DNA of 64,000 bases. Origin: Umbribacter vaginalis (GTDB lineage: Bacteria > Actinomycetota > Coriobacteriia > Coriobacteriales > Eggerthellaceae). Of the stretch, positions 3,657 to 55,670 are shown in pieces; the stretch's first letter is position 1, and each line of letters starts with the position of its first letter. The stretch is taken from assembly GCA_001552935.1 (NCBI GenBank), contig KQ959713.1, positions 62,911-126,910 of the forward strand, written 5' to 3'. The translations under genes were made by a program, and so were the position numbers. Below the pieces are notes generated by a model that saw only the letters and a program-made list of their open reading frames with translations, had not been told where the DNA came from and ran no database searches.

Positions 3657-4929
3657 AAAGGTCCTCTCTTAACTCTATAAACAGCGCTTTTAAACAAACC
3701 GATGGAATGCAGTTGCGCGTAAGGCGATAACGATACGTTTGCAAACACTCCAACATATGCACCCCTTGCTTCTCGGATATACAAGAAGCAAGCCTCTCAA
3801 TAAGCGCACGTTGATCATGTAATGTTACGGCATGTGATGTAGCAAACATACATTCAAGCACATTGGTAATAAGCGCTTCTAGCACATCGATACAAAACAA
3901 ATACCTACTTAAATTATATATGACGTTTTCCCTTTTGAGTGTTAATTCAAGCTTCTGCACTGCTTTATTGCTTAAAAATTCACGAGTTTCCTCTAAATGA
4001 TGCAAGGCATGCTGTTGTTCTTCTTGAACACACTGCTCAATTATGTCGCACAGCGACTGCGCACAACAAAGCGCTTGCCACTCGTCAGCTTGTAAAAGCG
4101 TTAAACACGCTTCAAAACACGCTAAGCGCAACTGTTGCAACAACGCAGACGCCATGAGTTGCTTACATTGAACAATGCTACCACCACACGATGCAAGATA
4201 TGACTGAATAAGCTGCGTGTTCGTCAGATCAACGTGATGTGTGTTTTCGACTATGGCACGTTGGGTGCTCGATGCAACAGCATTGGGACTGTTCATCATA
4301 GTAACACGTTGCATGTGCGTTGCAGTACCATCATTTTGGGTGTTTGCAGATGATGCGCGGGAAGTTGCGTTCGACGTTTTAGCATAATGTTCAAGATACG
4401 TACACACATCAGCAGATGGCAAAGCTGCAAAATTGCACACAACGCAACGTGACACAATAGTTTCAAGCACATTGAAGCGTTTTGATGTCGTAAGAATGAA
4501 CACAACGCGCGATGGCGCTTCTTCCAATGTTTTAAGCAGGGCATTCGCACTTGAAGCGGTAAGTTTATCGGCATCGTGAAGCACATAAACTTTATACGGC
4601 GCGCACAACGGCATAACCGCCGCATCACGGATAATTTCCTGTGCTTGATCGATAAGATACCCATTCGTACCACCAGGCCAGTATTCATGAATATCAGGAT
4701 GCATATGTCGCCGCGCTTGCAAGCAGCTATCACACGTTGTGCAACCGTTGTGCTGACACACAAGCGCACATGCAAGTGCTTGCGCTACAAGGTCACTTTG
4801 TGAACTGGGCGGTCCAACACATAACACAGCATGCGCAACGCGCGTACTTGCAAGCATAGAAACCAAGGTTTGAACAGGGACATCGTTTGCAGGAAGTTCC
4901 TGAAATACCCGTGGAATATCCGCTGTCAT
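3634..4929 (-). CDS. holB: DNA polymerase III clamp-loader subunit delta'
   Basis: Delta' is the rigid stator of the clamp loader that places the beta sliding clamp on DNA. Seen are a degenerate P-loop (VGPPSSQSD, lacking the GKT that ATP-hydrolysing DnaX subunits have, as expected for delta'), a Cys cluster (CTTCDSC) typical of the zinc module, the segment LHDADKLTASSANALLKTLEE and the SRC motif. At 431 residues it is longer than usual. Part of the excess is a polar linker at about residues 190-235, rich in Ser, Asn and Thr. The start lies 2 bp after the tmk stop and the end overlaps ricT, indicating one transcript. Confidence 0.9.
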   Translation of the reverse strand: MTADIPRVFQELPANDVPVQTLVSMLASTRVAHAVLCVGPPSSQSDLVAQALACALVCQHNGCTTCDSCLQARRHMHPDIHEYWPGGTNGYLIDQAQEIIRDAAVMPLCAPYKVYVLHDADKLTASSANALLKTLEEAPSRVVFILTTSKRFNVLETIVSRCVVCNFAALPSADVCTYLEHYAKTSNATSRASSANTQNDGTATHMQRVTMMNSPNAVASSTQRAIVENTHHVDLTNTQLIQSYLASCGGSIVQCKQLMASALLQQLRLACFEACLTLLQADEWQALCCAQSLCDIIEQCVQEEQQHALHHLEETREFLSNKAVQKLELTLKRENVIYNLSRYLFCIDVLEALITNVLECMFATSHAVTLHDQRALIERLASCISEKQGVHMLECLQTYRYRLTRNCIPSVCLKALFIELREDLYGSCSPC

Positions 4930-33993: not shown

Positions 33994-34218
33994 TTTGACA
34001 CATAGTCTGTCGTACTTTTAGATTTCCCTAAAAATTGCGTTAACGAGTGGAACAAGTTATGAAGTAGCCGATGTGCTACATTCTAGTGGCTCAATTTTCA
34101 ATTAATACAGTGGCTTAATTTTCAATTGACATAGACATCTGGAAAATAAGGTTCCTGAGTCTAATACGTTGATTGTTGGGTATTGTATCGAATACGCAAA
34201 CTATAGAATAGTAAATAT
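33994..34218. other. AT-rich spacer with a paired direct repeat resembling an IS end
   Basis: AGTGGCTCAATTTTCAATTAA (34085-34105) recurs as AGTGGCTTAATTTTCAATTGA (34109-34129), a 24-bp period. Read on the minus strand, TCAATTGAAAATTAAGCCACT resembles the multiple terminal repeats of IS21-family elements. No transposase fragment is visible, so this would be a solo end at most. Confidence 0.4.
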
Positions 34219-34302
34219 CCAAATACTTTACTGAAAGTCCGCCAAATACTTTAATGAAAATTAGCCAAATACTTGAATGAAAATTGGACAAATACTTGAA
34301 TT
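34219..34302 (+). repeat. Four 23-bp repeats upstream of the DUF4143 ATPase gene
   Basis: CCAAATACTT(T/G)A(A/C)TGAAA units start at 34219, 34242, 34265 and 34288, an exact 23-bp period; the last copy begins ACAAATACTTGAATT and is cut short. The array ends about 40 bp before the start codon, so it may be an operator array or contain the promoter. Confidence 0.85.
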
Positions 34303-34343
34303 GCTGATAAAGTTTACCTAACTAATAGGCATTGGAGGAGATT

Positions 34344-35615
34344 ATGAAGGAGTATTTACCCAGAATTGCTGATAAATTATTAGAAGAACGATTAGACGCA
34401 AAGGGAGCAGTTTTAATTGAAGGGCCTAAATGGTGCGGAAAGACTACAACGGCAAAACAAAAAGCTAAAAGTTTTATATCTATGGATCTTCCTGATATGA
34501 CGAAACAATATCAACAAATGGCAGAGATTTCTCCTAGTACACTACTCGAAGGAAAAACCCCAAGGCTGATAGATGAATGGCAAATAGCACCTAATATATG
34601 GAACGCTGTGCGATATGAGGTTGACAACAGAGATGAGTTTGGCCAATTTATATTAACGGGTTCGGCAGTGCCTAATGAATTTGATAACTCTATGCATACA
34701 GGCATAGGCAGAATCTCTAGGCTTTTGATGCGACCTATGAGTTTGTATGAATCAAAAGACTCAAGTGGTGAAGTTTCTATTAGAGATTTATTTGAAGATA
34801 AAAATATTTCGGCTATTAATGAAACCAGTCTTGAAAAAATAGCATTTTTAATATGTAGAGGTGGATGGCCGAAAGCAATTGGTTTAGAAGAAAAACCGTC
34901 TTTATTTCAAGCGATAGATTATTACAAATCCGTTGTTTCTACAGATATTAGTAGAGTGGATTCGATAAAAAGAGATACAGAAAAAGCAAAAAGACTGCTT
35001 AAATCTTACGCAAGGCATGTGGGTTCGCAAAGCTCACTCGAAACGATAAGGCAAGATATGTTGGTCAATCAAGAGGATACATTTAACCAAGTGACTCTTT
35101 ATTCTTATCTTGATGCGCTAAGAAAAATGTTCGTGATAGAAGACTCGCCTGCATGGAATCCAAATTTAAGATCTAAAACGTCCATACGCACAACGGATAC
35201 GAGATATTTTTCAGACCCATCCATTGCAACTGCTGCTTTAGGAATTGGACCTAAAGATTTGTTAGATGATTTAAAAACTATGGGATTTTTATTCGAAAAT
35301 TTATGTGTTCGTGACTTAAGAATTTATACGGACTATTTGGATGGAACTATTTATCACTATAGAGATAAGAATGACTTAGAATGTGATGCGGTTATTCATT
35401 TAAGAAATGGGTCTTATGGTCTAGTTGAAATTAAGCTCGGTGGAGATAAGCTGATTGAGGAAGGTGCAAAGACGTTAAAGGATTTAGCATCTAAAATAGA
35501 TACTGAAAACATGCCTAAACCTTCATTTATGGCAGTTTTATGTGCCAAGACGCCTTTTGCTTACAAAAGAAATGATGGTGTTTGCGTAATACCCATTACT
35601 ACTCTAAGACCTTAA
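34344..35615 (+). CDS. AAA-type ATPase with DUF4143 C-terminal domain, probably acquired
   Basis: A 423-residue P-loop ATPase of the AAA_14/DUF4143 family. Walker A is GPKWCGKTTT (residues ~27-36), Walker B LIDEWQ, then FILTGSAVP; a DUF4143 nuclease-like C-terminal domain contains ECDAVIHLRNGSYGLVEIK, matching the D-ExK pattern of restriction-like folds. The biological role of this common family is unsettled. Codon use is strikingly AT-rich (AAA, TTA, AGA, ATA) compared with both neighbours. It carries its own repeat array upstream and hairpin downstream. The ATG at 34344 follows GGAGGAG; the frame also has a TTG at 34332. This reads as a self-contained cassette. Confidence 0.88.
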   Translation: MKEYLPRIADKLLEERLDAKGAVLIEGPKWCGKTTTAKQKAKSFISMDLPDMTKQYQQMAEISPSTLLEGKTPRLIDEWQIAPNIWNAVRYEVDNRDEFGQFILTGSAVPNEFDNSMHTGIGRISRLLMRPMSLYESKDSSGEVSIRDLFEDKNISAINETSLEKIAFLICRGGWPKAIGLEEKPSLFQAIDYYKSVVSTDISRVDSIKRDTEKAKRLLKSYARHVGSQSSLETIRQDMLVNQEDTFNQVTLYSYLDALRKMFVIEDSPAWNPNLRSKTSIRTTDTRYFSDPSIATAALGIGPKDLLDDLKTMGFLFENLCVRDLRIYTDYLDGTIYHYRDKNDLECDAVIHLRNGSYGLVEIKLGGDKLIEEGAKTLKDLASKIDTENMPKPSFMAVLCAKTPFAYKRNDGVCVIPITTLRP

Positions 35616-35625
35616 TAGTTTTATG

Positions 35626-35680
35626 TCCACACATACGAGACGACTGATCTTAAAAGAATCAATCGTATGAAGTGGATTTT
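35626..35680 (+). terminator. Hairpin terminator of the DUF4143 gene
   Basis: TCCAC and CATACGA on the left pair with TCGTATG and GTGGA on the right, with an inner TGAT/ATCA pairing, followed by TTTTCTT. It is an imperfect stem about 11 bp past the stop. Confidence 0.65.
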
Positions 35681-39147: not shown

Positions 39148-42100
39148 CTACGCGGACGGCTCGCACAACACGCGCATGAAGGTTTCGACCGTAAACACCA
39201 GTTTATCAGCTGACATATCATCTTCCGCAGCGCCGTTGAGCGTAAAATACCGCAAAGGCAAGCGCAATTTCGACCCTACAACACGCCCGCGTGCACGGCG
39301 AATGTCTGCCATAAGCGGCGCAGGTACGCGCACAGGATCAACGATAAGCAAACCCTCGCTCACGATAACGCTTTTGATATTCGCGTCATTCGCCAGCACT
39401 TTTATGCGCGCACGCGCGAACAATGCACGCGCTTCATCAGGTATATCGGGGTGTTTGCACGCAAGCTCGTGCGACAGCTTGTCGATAAACTCAAGCGTAG
39501 GCGCGCACGCCAAGCGCCTGTACCACATTACGCGCTCGTCGATATCGGGAATATATTCCTCGCTTAAGAGCGCACTACCAGGTATATTAACGGTTACATC
39601 CATCACACCATCTGCACCAGCAGCAGTCGCGCCAATGCCCTCACCATCAGCGCCCACACCATCTGCACGCTGCCCAGCATCTTCCCCTGCTTGCTGCGCA
39701 CGCAAAGCCTCTTGCAGCATTTGCGAGAACAAATCGAAGCCAACCTGCGATAAGTTGCCGCTCTGCTCGGCACCAAGAATGCTGCCGGCACCGCGAATTT
39801 CCAAATCGCGCATCGCAATGCGCATGCCGCTTCCTAATTCTTGGAACTCTTTCAGCGCTGTTAAACGCGCAAGCGCTTCTTCAGTAAGCGGAACATGTTC
39901 GGGAAACATAAACAGCGCATATGCCTGCTCGGTTGAGCGACCAACACGGCCTTTCAACTGATAAAGCTGCGATAAGCCCAGGCGTTGCGCGTCTTCGATG
40001 ATAAGCGTGTTCGTGTGCGGATTGTCGATACCGCTTTCAATAATGGTTGTTGCAACCAACACATCAAGCTTACCTGCAGAAAACTCTTCCATAACCGCTT
40101 CAAGGCTGTCGCGATCCATTTGCCCGTGCGCCACACCGACACGCGCTTCACCTGCGGCTTCATGCACGCGCGCCAATGCTTCATCGATAGAATGCACGCG
40201 GTTTGACACATAGTACACCTGCCCGCCACGGTTCAGCTCGCGCGCAATAGCCATCGACACCATATCGGGATCGTATTCGCCCACGTGCACGTCAACGGCA
40301 CGCCTGTGGCTGGGCGGCGTTAAAATGAGGCTCATGTCGCGCACACCTGAAAGCGACATTTGCAAGGTGCGCGGAATGGGCGTTGCTGAAAGCGTAAGCA
40401 CGTCGATATACGCACGTAAATTCTTCATTTGTTCTTTATGTTGAACGCCAAAACGCTGCTCTTCATCGATGATGATAAGCCCTAAATCGTGCGGATTCAC
40501 ATCGCGCGAGAGCAGGCGGTGCGTGCCAACAAGCACTTCAATACTTCCATCCGCAAAGCCCTCAAGCGCACGTTTTTGCTGGGCTGGCGTGCGGAAACGC
40601 GACAACACTTCCACATGAACGCCAAAGGGTTCAAAGCGCTCGCGGAAATTCGTGTAATGCTGCTGCGCTAAAATTGTTGTGGGGCACAGCACCATCACCT
40701 GCTTGTTGTCTTGCGTAGCCTTAAACGCTGCACGCAGCGCAACTTCCGTTTTGCCAAAACCAACATCGCCGCAGATAAGCCTATCCATGGGGCGCGCTGC
40801 TTGCATATCGGCTTTCACATCGGCAATAGCCGACAGCTGATCGGGCGTTTCTTTATACGGGAACGCGTCTTCCATTTCTTTTTGCCACGGCGTATCGGCG
40901 CTGAACGCAAAACCCTGCACCGCTTGCCGGCGCGTATACACATCCACCAAATCGAAGGCAAGCTTGCGCGTTGCGCGACGTGCCGCATTCATCGCGCGTG
41001 ACCAATCTGACGAGTTCAGGCGCGTAAGGCGCGGCGCATTTCCCTCGGGGCCCACATAGCGCGTAACGCGATCGAGGCGCTCGACCGGCACAAAGAGCTG
41101 ATCGCCCTCGGCATACTCAAGCTGCAGATAATCGCGCATGTCACCATCGTTTTCGCGCGTCACAATACCCTTGAAGTAGGCAATGCCGTGCGAGACGTGC
41201 ACTACGTAGTCGCCCGGCTTAAACGGGAACGTAACTTTGGTAATATCGATACTTTGACGTGCGCGTTTAGCAGAATAACGCTGCGTGTCGGTAATGCTAA
41301 TAAGCGCAAGCTTGGCTTTTGGAATAATCATGCCCAGTGGCAGCGGAGAGGTAACCAGGTTCACCACACTGCTGCGAAGCGCACGTTTCGCCCTTTCTTC
41401 ACGTGCATGTTCATCTTGAACGTTAGCTGCGTTTTCGTTTTGAGCAGGGGCGGTGGTTGTTTGCGTGGGTGCGTTTTCGTTTTGAGCACCACTTGCATGC
41501 TTGTCCTGAACATTGCTGGCAGGCTTGTCTTGAACATCGCTTGCAGGCTTGTTTTGCACATCACTTGTAGGCTTGTCTTGAACATCGGCTTCATAAATGG
41601 GAAGCTCATGGTCAACAAGCGCTAATTTCATATCGGCGCGCGCTCGATAATGCGGAATTGAAAACACAATCTTTGTGCCAGCATCAAGCAAGGTGTGCAA
41701 ACGTGCGAACAGCTTTTCCGGATCGCCTGCCACATCGGGGCGCAAAATGCGCAGTTCATCGTCAAGATGCGCATGCGCACGCATAAGCGACATATACGTT
41801 GCGCGCACACCTTTCCCAAACGACACCTGCTGTGGAGTGCGCGCAAAACATGAAACAGGCAACTGACTACCTGCTACCAATGCCTGAGCAGCCTCAAACG
41901 CACGCGACGCATCGTCAAACAATGCACGCGGCTCAATAAGCGTGGTAAGACACAAGCGTGTTGCGTAATCGCCCAAGGTAGCTGGGGTATCGTAGGCAAA
42001 CGAAAGCAGCTTGTCTTCGCCGGGAACAGGAATACCACTCTCGAGCGCTTCAAGGGCGCGGCGCAGTTCCTGGTTAGTGCGAGCTGGGCGTTTAAGCGCA

Positions 42101-42825
42101 TGCATAAGCGGCGTGCGCGAAGCGGTGTTCTGCGCAAGAAAACGTACCGGGTAGATTTCAACCGACTGCAACTGATTGATTGTTTGCCCTGTTGAAGGAA
42201 CAATTTTGCGAATTTCTTCCAGCGTGTCGCCAAAAAAATCAAGCTGAACAGGATAGTCAAGCTGCCCTGGAAACACATCGATAATGCCGCCCGCTTGCGA
42301 AAAGCTACCCGGCTCATCGGCGTGAGGCGCACGCTTATACCCCATGTCAAGAAGCATTTCTAGAAAATGCTCGAGGCTGTCAAGCGTCTGATTGGACGAC
42401 AGCACAACAGGCGTTGCGCGCTTCGATTCGCAAGACGGAAGCAAACGCACCAGCGACTGTGCACTTGCAACCACGATGCAGGGAGCATTCGATGCAAGCA
42501 GATGCGCAGCTTGCAGTTGTCGCGCGCACACCGATGCAGAAGCCGCCTGGTCAGAGAAGGGATTATCGCGGCGCTGCGGGAAATGAAACACGCGCTGGGT
42601 ACCTATATACGACGCCAAGCTGCGCGTGAACGTGTACGCATTCTCTTCACCTGCAACAATAACAAGGCTTGGTTGAGGCTTGTACACAAAACGGCTTGCC
42701 ACCATAAAAGGGCGCGCTGATGAGGCAATTCCCAAACTGGCGTCGGTTTGTGCGTCAAGCTTTTCCCAGAAATGCTGAACGCAGCCCGACTTCACAAGCG
42801 AAAAAACCAGAGCATCAATGAGCAT
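39148..42825 (-). CDS. mfd: Transcription-repair coupling factor Mfd with internal octapeptide repeats
   Basis: Displaces RNA polymerase stalled at lesions and recruits UvrA. The 1225-residue protein has the UvrB-like N-terminal module ([25 protein letters not shown]), the polymerase-interacting domain ([20 protein letters not shown]), the RecG-like motor with Walker [18 protein letters not shown] and [11 protein letters not shown], and the TRCF C-terminal domain. The ATG at 42823-42825 has AAAGGAG; the 68 codons before it are a repeat spacer. Between the N-terminal module and the polymerase-binding domain lies an inserted run of DVQDKPAS-type octapeptides (DNA 41402-41592), not expected in Mfd. 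Confidence 0.94.
41402..41592 (+). repeat. 24-bp coding repeats inside mfd
   Basis: Units related to AGGCTTGTCTTGAACATCGC repeat with a 24-bp period, encoding [32 protein letters not shown] and GAQNENAP and ending in further diverged copies. Confidence 0.88.
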
Positions 42826-43013
42826 AGTTACTCCTTTTACGGCAGTGCGACAGTGCGGCAATGCGGAAACGGCTGGCAGCGCGCGGGCGACAGTGCGGCG
42901 TGGTAGCAGAACGCACGCAGGCGCTGGTGACGTGGTAGCGGTACGGACGCAGGTGCTGGCGGCGTGGGGTGTAACACGGACGACGCGCGCGTCCCTGTCA
43001 GTTTCACGACAAC
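42826..43013. other. GC-rich repeat spacer between tRNA-Sec and mfd
   Basis: Contains near-copies of GCGACAGTGCGGC (around 42847 and 42888) and of GTGCTGGCGGCGTGG-like strings. It is translated in frame with mfd if an earlier start is used, but looks non-coding. Confidence 0.5.
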
Positions 43014-43040
43014 GCAAAAAAGCCCGCATACGCTGCGGGC
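43014..43040 (-). terminator. Terminator of the tRNA-Sec gene
   Basis: On the minus strand GCCCGCA, a short loop and TGCGGGC are followed by TTTTTTG, 11 bp past the tRNA 3' end. Confidence 0.9.
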
Positions 43041-55467: not shown

Positions 55468-55610
55468 AATTCCTCTCGAATCATATTGCATATAGTTTGT
55501 GCAGTAAAAATTGACACATCGTTATAACAAACAACAGGCGGTTATATACCTATGCATCCGGCATAAACGTTATAAAAGGATACGAGTAGATAAGGTGAAT
55601 GCGATTTACT

Positions 55611-55670
<60 letters not shown>

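Follow-up and report, generated by a model that had tools for sequence, protein, structure and literature searches.

The window analysed here, a 64,000-nt stretch of Umbribacter vaginalis DNA (GCA_001552935.1, contig KQ959713.1, positions 62,911-126,910 of the forward strand), contains an ATPase gene preceded by a tandem array of 23-bp units and followed by a hairpin (Table 1). The 423-aa protein matched two Pfam models above their curated cut-offs (DUF4143, E = 2.2e-32, 112.4 bits against 28.1; AAA_14, E = 6.3e-14, 52.5 bits against 27), in agreement with a sequence-only reading of the locus that had named a DUF4143 ATPase, and its residues 1-420 matched the PADLOC PDC-S01 HMM (E = 4e-59). 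That reading had also described codon use unlike that of the neighbouring genes, and the gene was indeed the most deviant in codon use among the 35 long ORFs of the window, with a GC content of 0.36 (GC3 0.27) against a long-ORF mean of 0.49. At E 0.001 the protein matched only itself in its own genome, where three other DUF4143 genes fell elsewhere in the family. A second DUF4143 gene of this genome (L019, at G000:C39:55943) was accompanied by an array of its own, with a period of 32 and a different sequence.

Table 1. Features of the cassette locus, in window coordinates, with the basis of each assignment.
Feature	Position	Strand	Basis
Putative operator array, period 23	34219..34301	+	TRF, repeat search, conserved upstream of relatives
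Array units	34219-34241, 34242-34264, 34265-34287, partial 34288-34301	+	TRF
Candidate promoter: -35 TGGACA 34285-34290, 17 nt, -10 TAAAGT 34308-34313	34285..34313	+	Consensus scan
Ribosome-binding site GGAGGAG	34334..34340	+	Read off sequence
AAA_14-DUF4143 gene (PADLOC PDC-S01), 423 aa	34344..35615	+	ORF, Pfam, PADLOC HMM
AAA/STAND-like ATPase core, residues 21-136	34404..34751	+	Pfam, model, residue counts
Winged helix-turn-helix, residues 212-289, putative array reader	34977..35210	+	AlphaFold secondary structure, weak covariation
PD-(D/E)XK nuclease-fold domain, residues 310-417; E318, D348, E362, K364	35271..35594	+	Model, conservation
Hairpin, local, outside the transferred unit	35625..35677	+	MFE, terminator scan, relatives

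TRF assigned the array a period of 23 with 3.6 copies, 88% matches and 0 indels, that is, three complete units followed by a truncated one, and a separate repeat search confirmed the unit spacing (23, 23). Of the four 23-bp repeats first claimed, the period stood and a full fourth unit did not; the distance of about 40 bp given from the array to the gene proved to be 42 nt, measured to the ATG. The upstream period score of the cassette, z = 8.5, lay above that of every one of 415 shuffles of family upstream regions (maximum 4.96). No further unit with three or fewer mismatches was found elsewhere in the genome, so that we saw no wider regulon, and a trans-regulon in this genome was rejected as a candidate. 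A search for decoy arrays in viruses, using an exact 21-nt unit, returned 0 stretches in viral_contigs, and searches of phages and plasmids for the unit gave only weak, chance-like matches.

Other repeats were noted in the window. An exact 14-nt repeat, GAATTGCTGATAAA, occurred at 34298-34311, at the candidate promoter, and again at 34363-34376, within the beginning of the coding sequence. Just upstream of the cassette, at 34085-34132, lay two 24-nt direct repeats (AGTGGCTYAATTTTCAATT...), for which the genome had one more site (C22:45051), next to a related unit. These resemble insertion-sequence ends; an IS21 origin was considered and rejected, and the IS21 element of L234 gave no meaningful match. 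Elsewhere, four 24-bp repeats at 41492-41587, inside reading frame 39148-43029, encoded a VQDKPAS-like peptide repeat, and TCTG was repeated 15 times at 55610-55670, a possible slippage tract. The hairpin, which had been described as the gene's own, was real but weak (MFE -16.3, z -2.2, equalled in 5 of 200 shuffles), was not called by a terminator scan and was absent downstream of close relatives; it was therefore rejected as a part of the cassette.

The full-length AlphaFold model (14 sequences; pLDDT 84.8, pTM 0.87) placed the ATPase first, the winged helix second and the nuclease domain last, with the wing at residues 271-284 poorly modelled (pLDDT <50). The ATPase core carried a Walker A motif, GPKWCGKT, and a Walker B motif, LIDE; among 156 DUF4143 members, K33 was present in 154, D77 in 156 and E78 in 155. 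In VIA-align comparisons, residues 1-300 matched 2qen (Z 15.0, rmsd 4.6, 261 aligned), 2fna (Z 13.7, rmsd 4.2, 256 aligned), RPP1 (Z 12.1) and CED-4 (Z 11.8). Judged by its Walker A and B motifs, the winged helix that follows them and these fold matches, the modelled ATPase is STAND-like. When modelled separately, the C-terminal domain (pLDDT 83.9) matched McrC (Z 10.1, rmsd 3.4, 122 aligned), Can2, Card1 and NucC (Z 8.6 to 6.6) and also restriction enzymes by VIA; Foldseek alone returned no match to this domain at E <0.001. A D-ExK-like C-terminal pattern had been picked out from the letters, and its D348, E362 and K364 are present and conserved on a modelled nuclease fold: among 87 period-23 members, E318 was kept in 86, D348 in 85, E362 in 84 and K364 in 83. 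In period-33 and period-40 members, E362 was replaced by Q in 8 of 21. By fold and by the conserved E, D and E-x-K, the C-terminus is probably a PD-(D/E)XK nuclease.

We scanned the upstream regions of 83 intact relatives (at least 250 bits, 38-100% identity, from bacteria and archaea) without bias over periods 15-45. The best period was 23 in 70 of the 83 and 24 in 5; 57 relatives scored z ≥ 6 and 69 scored z ≥ 5, and downstream of relatives z ≥ 6 was reached in 3 of 81. Among 194 control promoters, cleaned of arrays viewed from opposite-strand ORFs, two reached z ≥ 6, both with period 23 in locus L123, near another family gene (Fisher p about 4e-36 for enrichment). By eye, at least two tandem units were seen in 10 of 11 relatives; the eleventh, L005, had one unit, but its upstream sequence was only 88 nt long. 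The array was weak or absent in L005, L056, L059, L067 and L072, as well as in some others with z < 5. Period 23 was found in all nine plasmid- or phage-record members examined (z 6.4-9.1), at identities down to 29.8%, and in distant members the spacing and position were kept while the unit sequences were almost unrelated. The sequence-only reading had tied a repeat operator to the gene, had suggested looking for the 23-bp unit upstream of other DUF4143 genes and had named absence of the repeats upstream of orthologues as the counter-case. Arrays were present there, mostly at period 23, and it is the operator role that remains putative.

Over 156 DUF4143 genes, the period was 23 or its double in 87, 31-35 in 15, 38-42 in 6 and another value in 7, and 41 had none. 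On the protein tree, over 108 labelled genes, the period class changed 4 times, compared with at least 16 times in 300 label shuffles. Thus, array period follows protein clade, with periods of 32-34 or 39-42 in other DUF4143 clades. One exception on the tree, L090_m_274, lies near an opposite-facing array at a contig end. Proteins from the period-33 and period-40 clades also matched PADLOC PDC-S01. In L140 a period-33 array (z 10.2) lay just downstream of the gene, at about 2770, with no family gene found directly behind it, and is possibly an orphan array. No array was found in a deep DUF4143 group (L013, L014, L015, L025 and L093), nor, at z 5, in the Thermus thermophilus members L197 and L198. 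In the available part of PMC4406477, TT_P0211 RNA rises with plasmid, only when Argonaute is present; by locus tag, TT_P0211 could be tied to neither L197 nor L198. DUF234 ATPases from archaeal genomes served as a further control, with 24 genes scored after 6 of 30 loci without a complete ORF were dropped. None had an array of period >15 at z ≥ 5, and DUF234 was rejected as a carrier of arrays, as z 5 was reached by only 2 of the 24 and, in both, at period 15, the lower limit of the scan. Among the paper titles listed in our literature searches, we found no report of arrays beside DUF4143 or PDC-S01 genes.

Units were analysed in 68 arrays, with a stricter set of 52 for covariation. They had a skeleton of G-C-C-A-A-A-like bases at positions 5-10 and A-A-T-G-A-A-like bases at positions 17-22, while the core between them (positions 11-16) was almost unconstrained, and carried 8.1 bits of information versus at most 4.9 in permuted units (68 arrays). 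Unit similarity dropped as protein distance grew (r 0.36; core Mantel test, 0 of 500 permutations). Beyond this trend, bases 5-10 covaried best with residues 262-281, in the wing (P(max) 0.009 with 68 arrays, 0.06 with 52), and bases 17-22 covaried equally strongly with residues 19-38, near Walker A; covariation between the hypervariable core and the winged helix was not significant (P(max) 0.12). Given the wing signal, the equal signal at residues 19-38 and the weak core, the winged helix is a plausible, though unproven, reader of the array. Palindromic units were rejected (4.69/8 versus 4.65 shuffled, 68 units), and non-palindromic units are as expected of head-to-tail protomers. The units of same-genome paralogues differed no more than protein distance predicts (45 pairs versus 2233 others). 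We therefore saw no active push to orthogonality, and orthogonality of such paralogues beyond protein distance was unsupported.

The nanA-ROK-nanE neighbours were present in all three congeners and the cassette gene in none, the sole DUF4143 gene found there being a distant one in G847. A syntenic gene with matching codon use in close relatives, the case that had been set against foreign origin, was thus not encountered. As asnB did not lie beside nanA-ROK-nanE in the congeners, the exact empty site was unreadable, and the proposed search for it recovered the operon without the gene but not the junction itself. The nearest named relatives, 88% and 87% identical, belonged to Peptoniphilaceae (a MAG and Ezakiella coagulans); two further relatives were 88% identical, and more occurred in records labelled Fenollaria, Dialister, Bacteroidales, Sphaerochaeta, Acholeplasmataceae and a methanogenic archaeon.

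In three close pairs, all of them lying in unrelated surroundings, only the array and the gene were alike: G398/G332 (89.6% over 1446 nt), L062/L064 (95.6% over 1490 nt) and L234/L235 (89.5% over 1391 nt), the last of which matches a Collinsella plasmid with a larger replicon. These homology blocks started about 111-235 nt before the ATG and stopped 8-14 nt past the stop codon. The pair L080/L185 had the whole locus in common, as under ordinary descent. These comparisons support the array and gene as a transferable unit of foreign origin, consistent with the mobile single gene first proposed. For the proposed small autonomous element, transferability is thus supported, whereas autonomy stays conjectural: of the hallmarks of a transposon or IS, no transposase lay in the block common to close pairs, no terminal inverted repeats were seen in the boundary sequences read and no target duplication was seen, and no mechanism of movement was found.

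Repeats flanked the gene at some loci. Array units stood on both sides of it in L004; in L010 it lay between 139-nt direct repeats (83%; 2809-2940 and 4294-4429) that include array units; related GC-rich direct repeats without a long reading frame flanked the cassette in L062 (1060-1284 and 2746-2894); and a related GC-rich repeat, likewise without a long reading frame, followed it in L064 (2853-3077, reverse-complement coordinates). The flanking repeats of L004, L010 and L062, together with the three pairs and the near-constant end of their blocks just past the stop codon, would suit an array that is a recombination or insertion site, at which the cassette moves with the participation of the nuclease and regulation is secondary. 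We consider this unlikely, since a second, downstream array was rare (the 3 of 81 above, one of which then precedes another family gene), neither a transposase nor inverted ends nor a target duplication was seen, the left end varied over the range given, L080/L185 were alike throughout, and the position of the array relative to the ATG and its promoter overlap suit regulation better.

The -35 element of the candidate promoter spans the start of the last array unit. The consensus scan of the region gave 4 promoter-like matches, with 6.9 expected by shuffles, so the candidate is weak alone. Close relatives showed the same arrangement of -35 and -10 relative to the array by eye, and TATAAT-likeness outside the unit peaked 26 nt from the start of the last unit in 38 bacterial members, of which only 7 had their best -10 at the predicted offset; archaeal members showed no peak of -10-likeness at the matching offset. 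Consensus matches thus hint, weakly, that the array coincides with the promoter.

We favour, with a probability of roughly 0.6, the reading of a transferable, defence-type nuclease whose winged helix acts on a self-specific operator array, so that the protein represses its own gene. A foreign single-gene cassette of the DUF4143/PDC-S01 family would have been acquired by horizontal transfer; its winged helix would bind the 23-bp units, with one protomer on each of the head-to-tail copies, and the bound protein would cover the -35 region and keep the gene nearly off. A change in nucleotide state or an infection signal may then free the array and raise expression, and the nuclease would act. We infer the self-binding, the repression, the trigger, the nuclease target and the defence role, for which the PADLOC PDC-S01 label makes the cassette a candidate.

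An array that binds a host-encoded regulator, or that is an intrinsic promoter element and not the protein's own site, would fit the A-rich stretches of the skeleton, and self-binding is something we infer. It is nevertheless quite unlikely: distant units are nearly unrelated, even inside one genome, the genome holds no other copy of the unit, and the array travels with the gene among bacteria and archaea, which together argue against a common host factor. A tandem array placed immediately before a nuclease gene is also reminiscent of type III toxin-antitoxin systems, in which toxI repeat RNA inhibits ToxN. That the array is transcribed into a comparable RNA inhibiting the nuclease seems very improbable, as the best promoter candidate lies at the array end and would leave most of the array untranscribed (a further upstream promoter is possible), and the units, which are non-palindromic, have only a loose skeleton in common and vary elsewhere. 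Chance or drift, by which functionless AT-rich repeats would arise in a low-GC promoter, is already refuted by the control promoters (p about 4e-36) and by the 24 archaeal-genome DUF234 genes, none with z ≥ 5 at a period >15.

Returning to self-repression on a self-specific array, its extension to the whole family is doubtful: DUF4143/PDC-S01 genes might be prokaryote-wide self-addressed nuclease elements, each with its own hypervariable array of clade-set period as off-switch, self-mark and left end of the mobile unit. If so, the functions of sensor, repressor and effector would be united in one ATPase-winged-helix-nuclease polypeptide, with array occupancy as the signal that it senses. What is new here is the array system beside PDC-S01 genes, the family itself being known. 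In the available text of PMC12988326, PDC-S01 is the fourth most common predicted defence across prokaryotes and an ATPase fused to PD-(D/E)XK, and validation of most PDC candidates is pending. PDC-S01 genes rank with the most frequent predicted defence genes in bacteria and archaea but lack a mechanism. An array beside nearly every member of the best-sampled clade gives each protein a candidate DNA target, so that binding, regulation and trigger become testable, and the family, with its array period fixed by clade and its array sequence almost free, supplies a large natural collection of protein-DNA specificity pairs.

Among known systems, the archaeal STAND-type ATPases 2qen and 2fna and the NLR/CED-4 proteins resemble the cassette protein in combining an ATPase with a winged helix. 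DUF234 proteins, which we take to be relatives of this STAND-like ATPase type, differ from the cassette family in having no comparable arrays (24 genes). McrC, Can2/Card1 and NucC have the fold predicted for the C-terminal domain, but in the cassette protein that domain forms one polypeptide with a winged helix and a STAND-like ATPase. ToxIN (type III) is similar in its tandem repeats upstream of a nuclease gene, whereas the cassette array begins upstream of the promoter candidate and runs into it; the toxin of ToxIN also has another fold than the cassette nuclease. The PADLOC PDC-S01 HMM covers the cassette protein at full length, and the part of PMC12988326 available makes no mention of upstream arrays. 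The proposed regulation resembles that by RptR, which, as described in the accessible part of PMC12255303, represses the promoter of a restriction-modification island cooperatively via promoter-overlapping direct repeats. The direct repeats of the cassette are firm, their promoter overlap is drawn from consensus matches, and the defence role and the repression are putative. The RptR repeats in that text are 9-bp with one conserved palindrome, whereas the units here are asymmetric, of period 23 and hypervariable, and RptR is a separate small regulator, whereas the cassette effector would itself act as the regulator.
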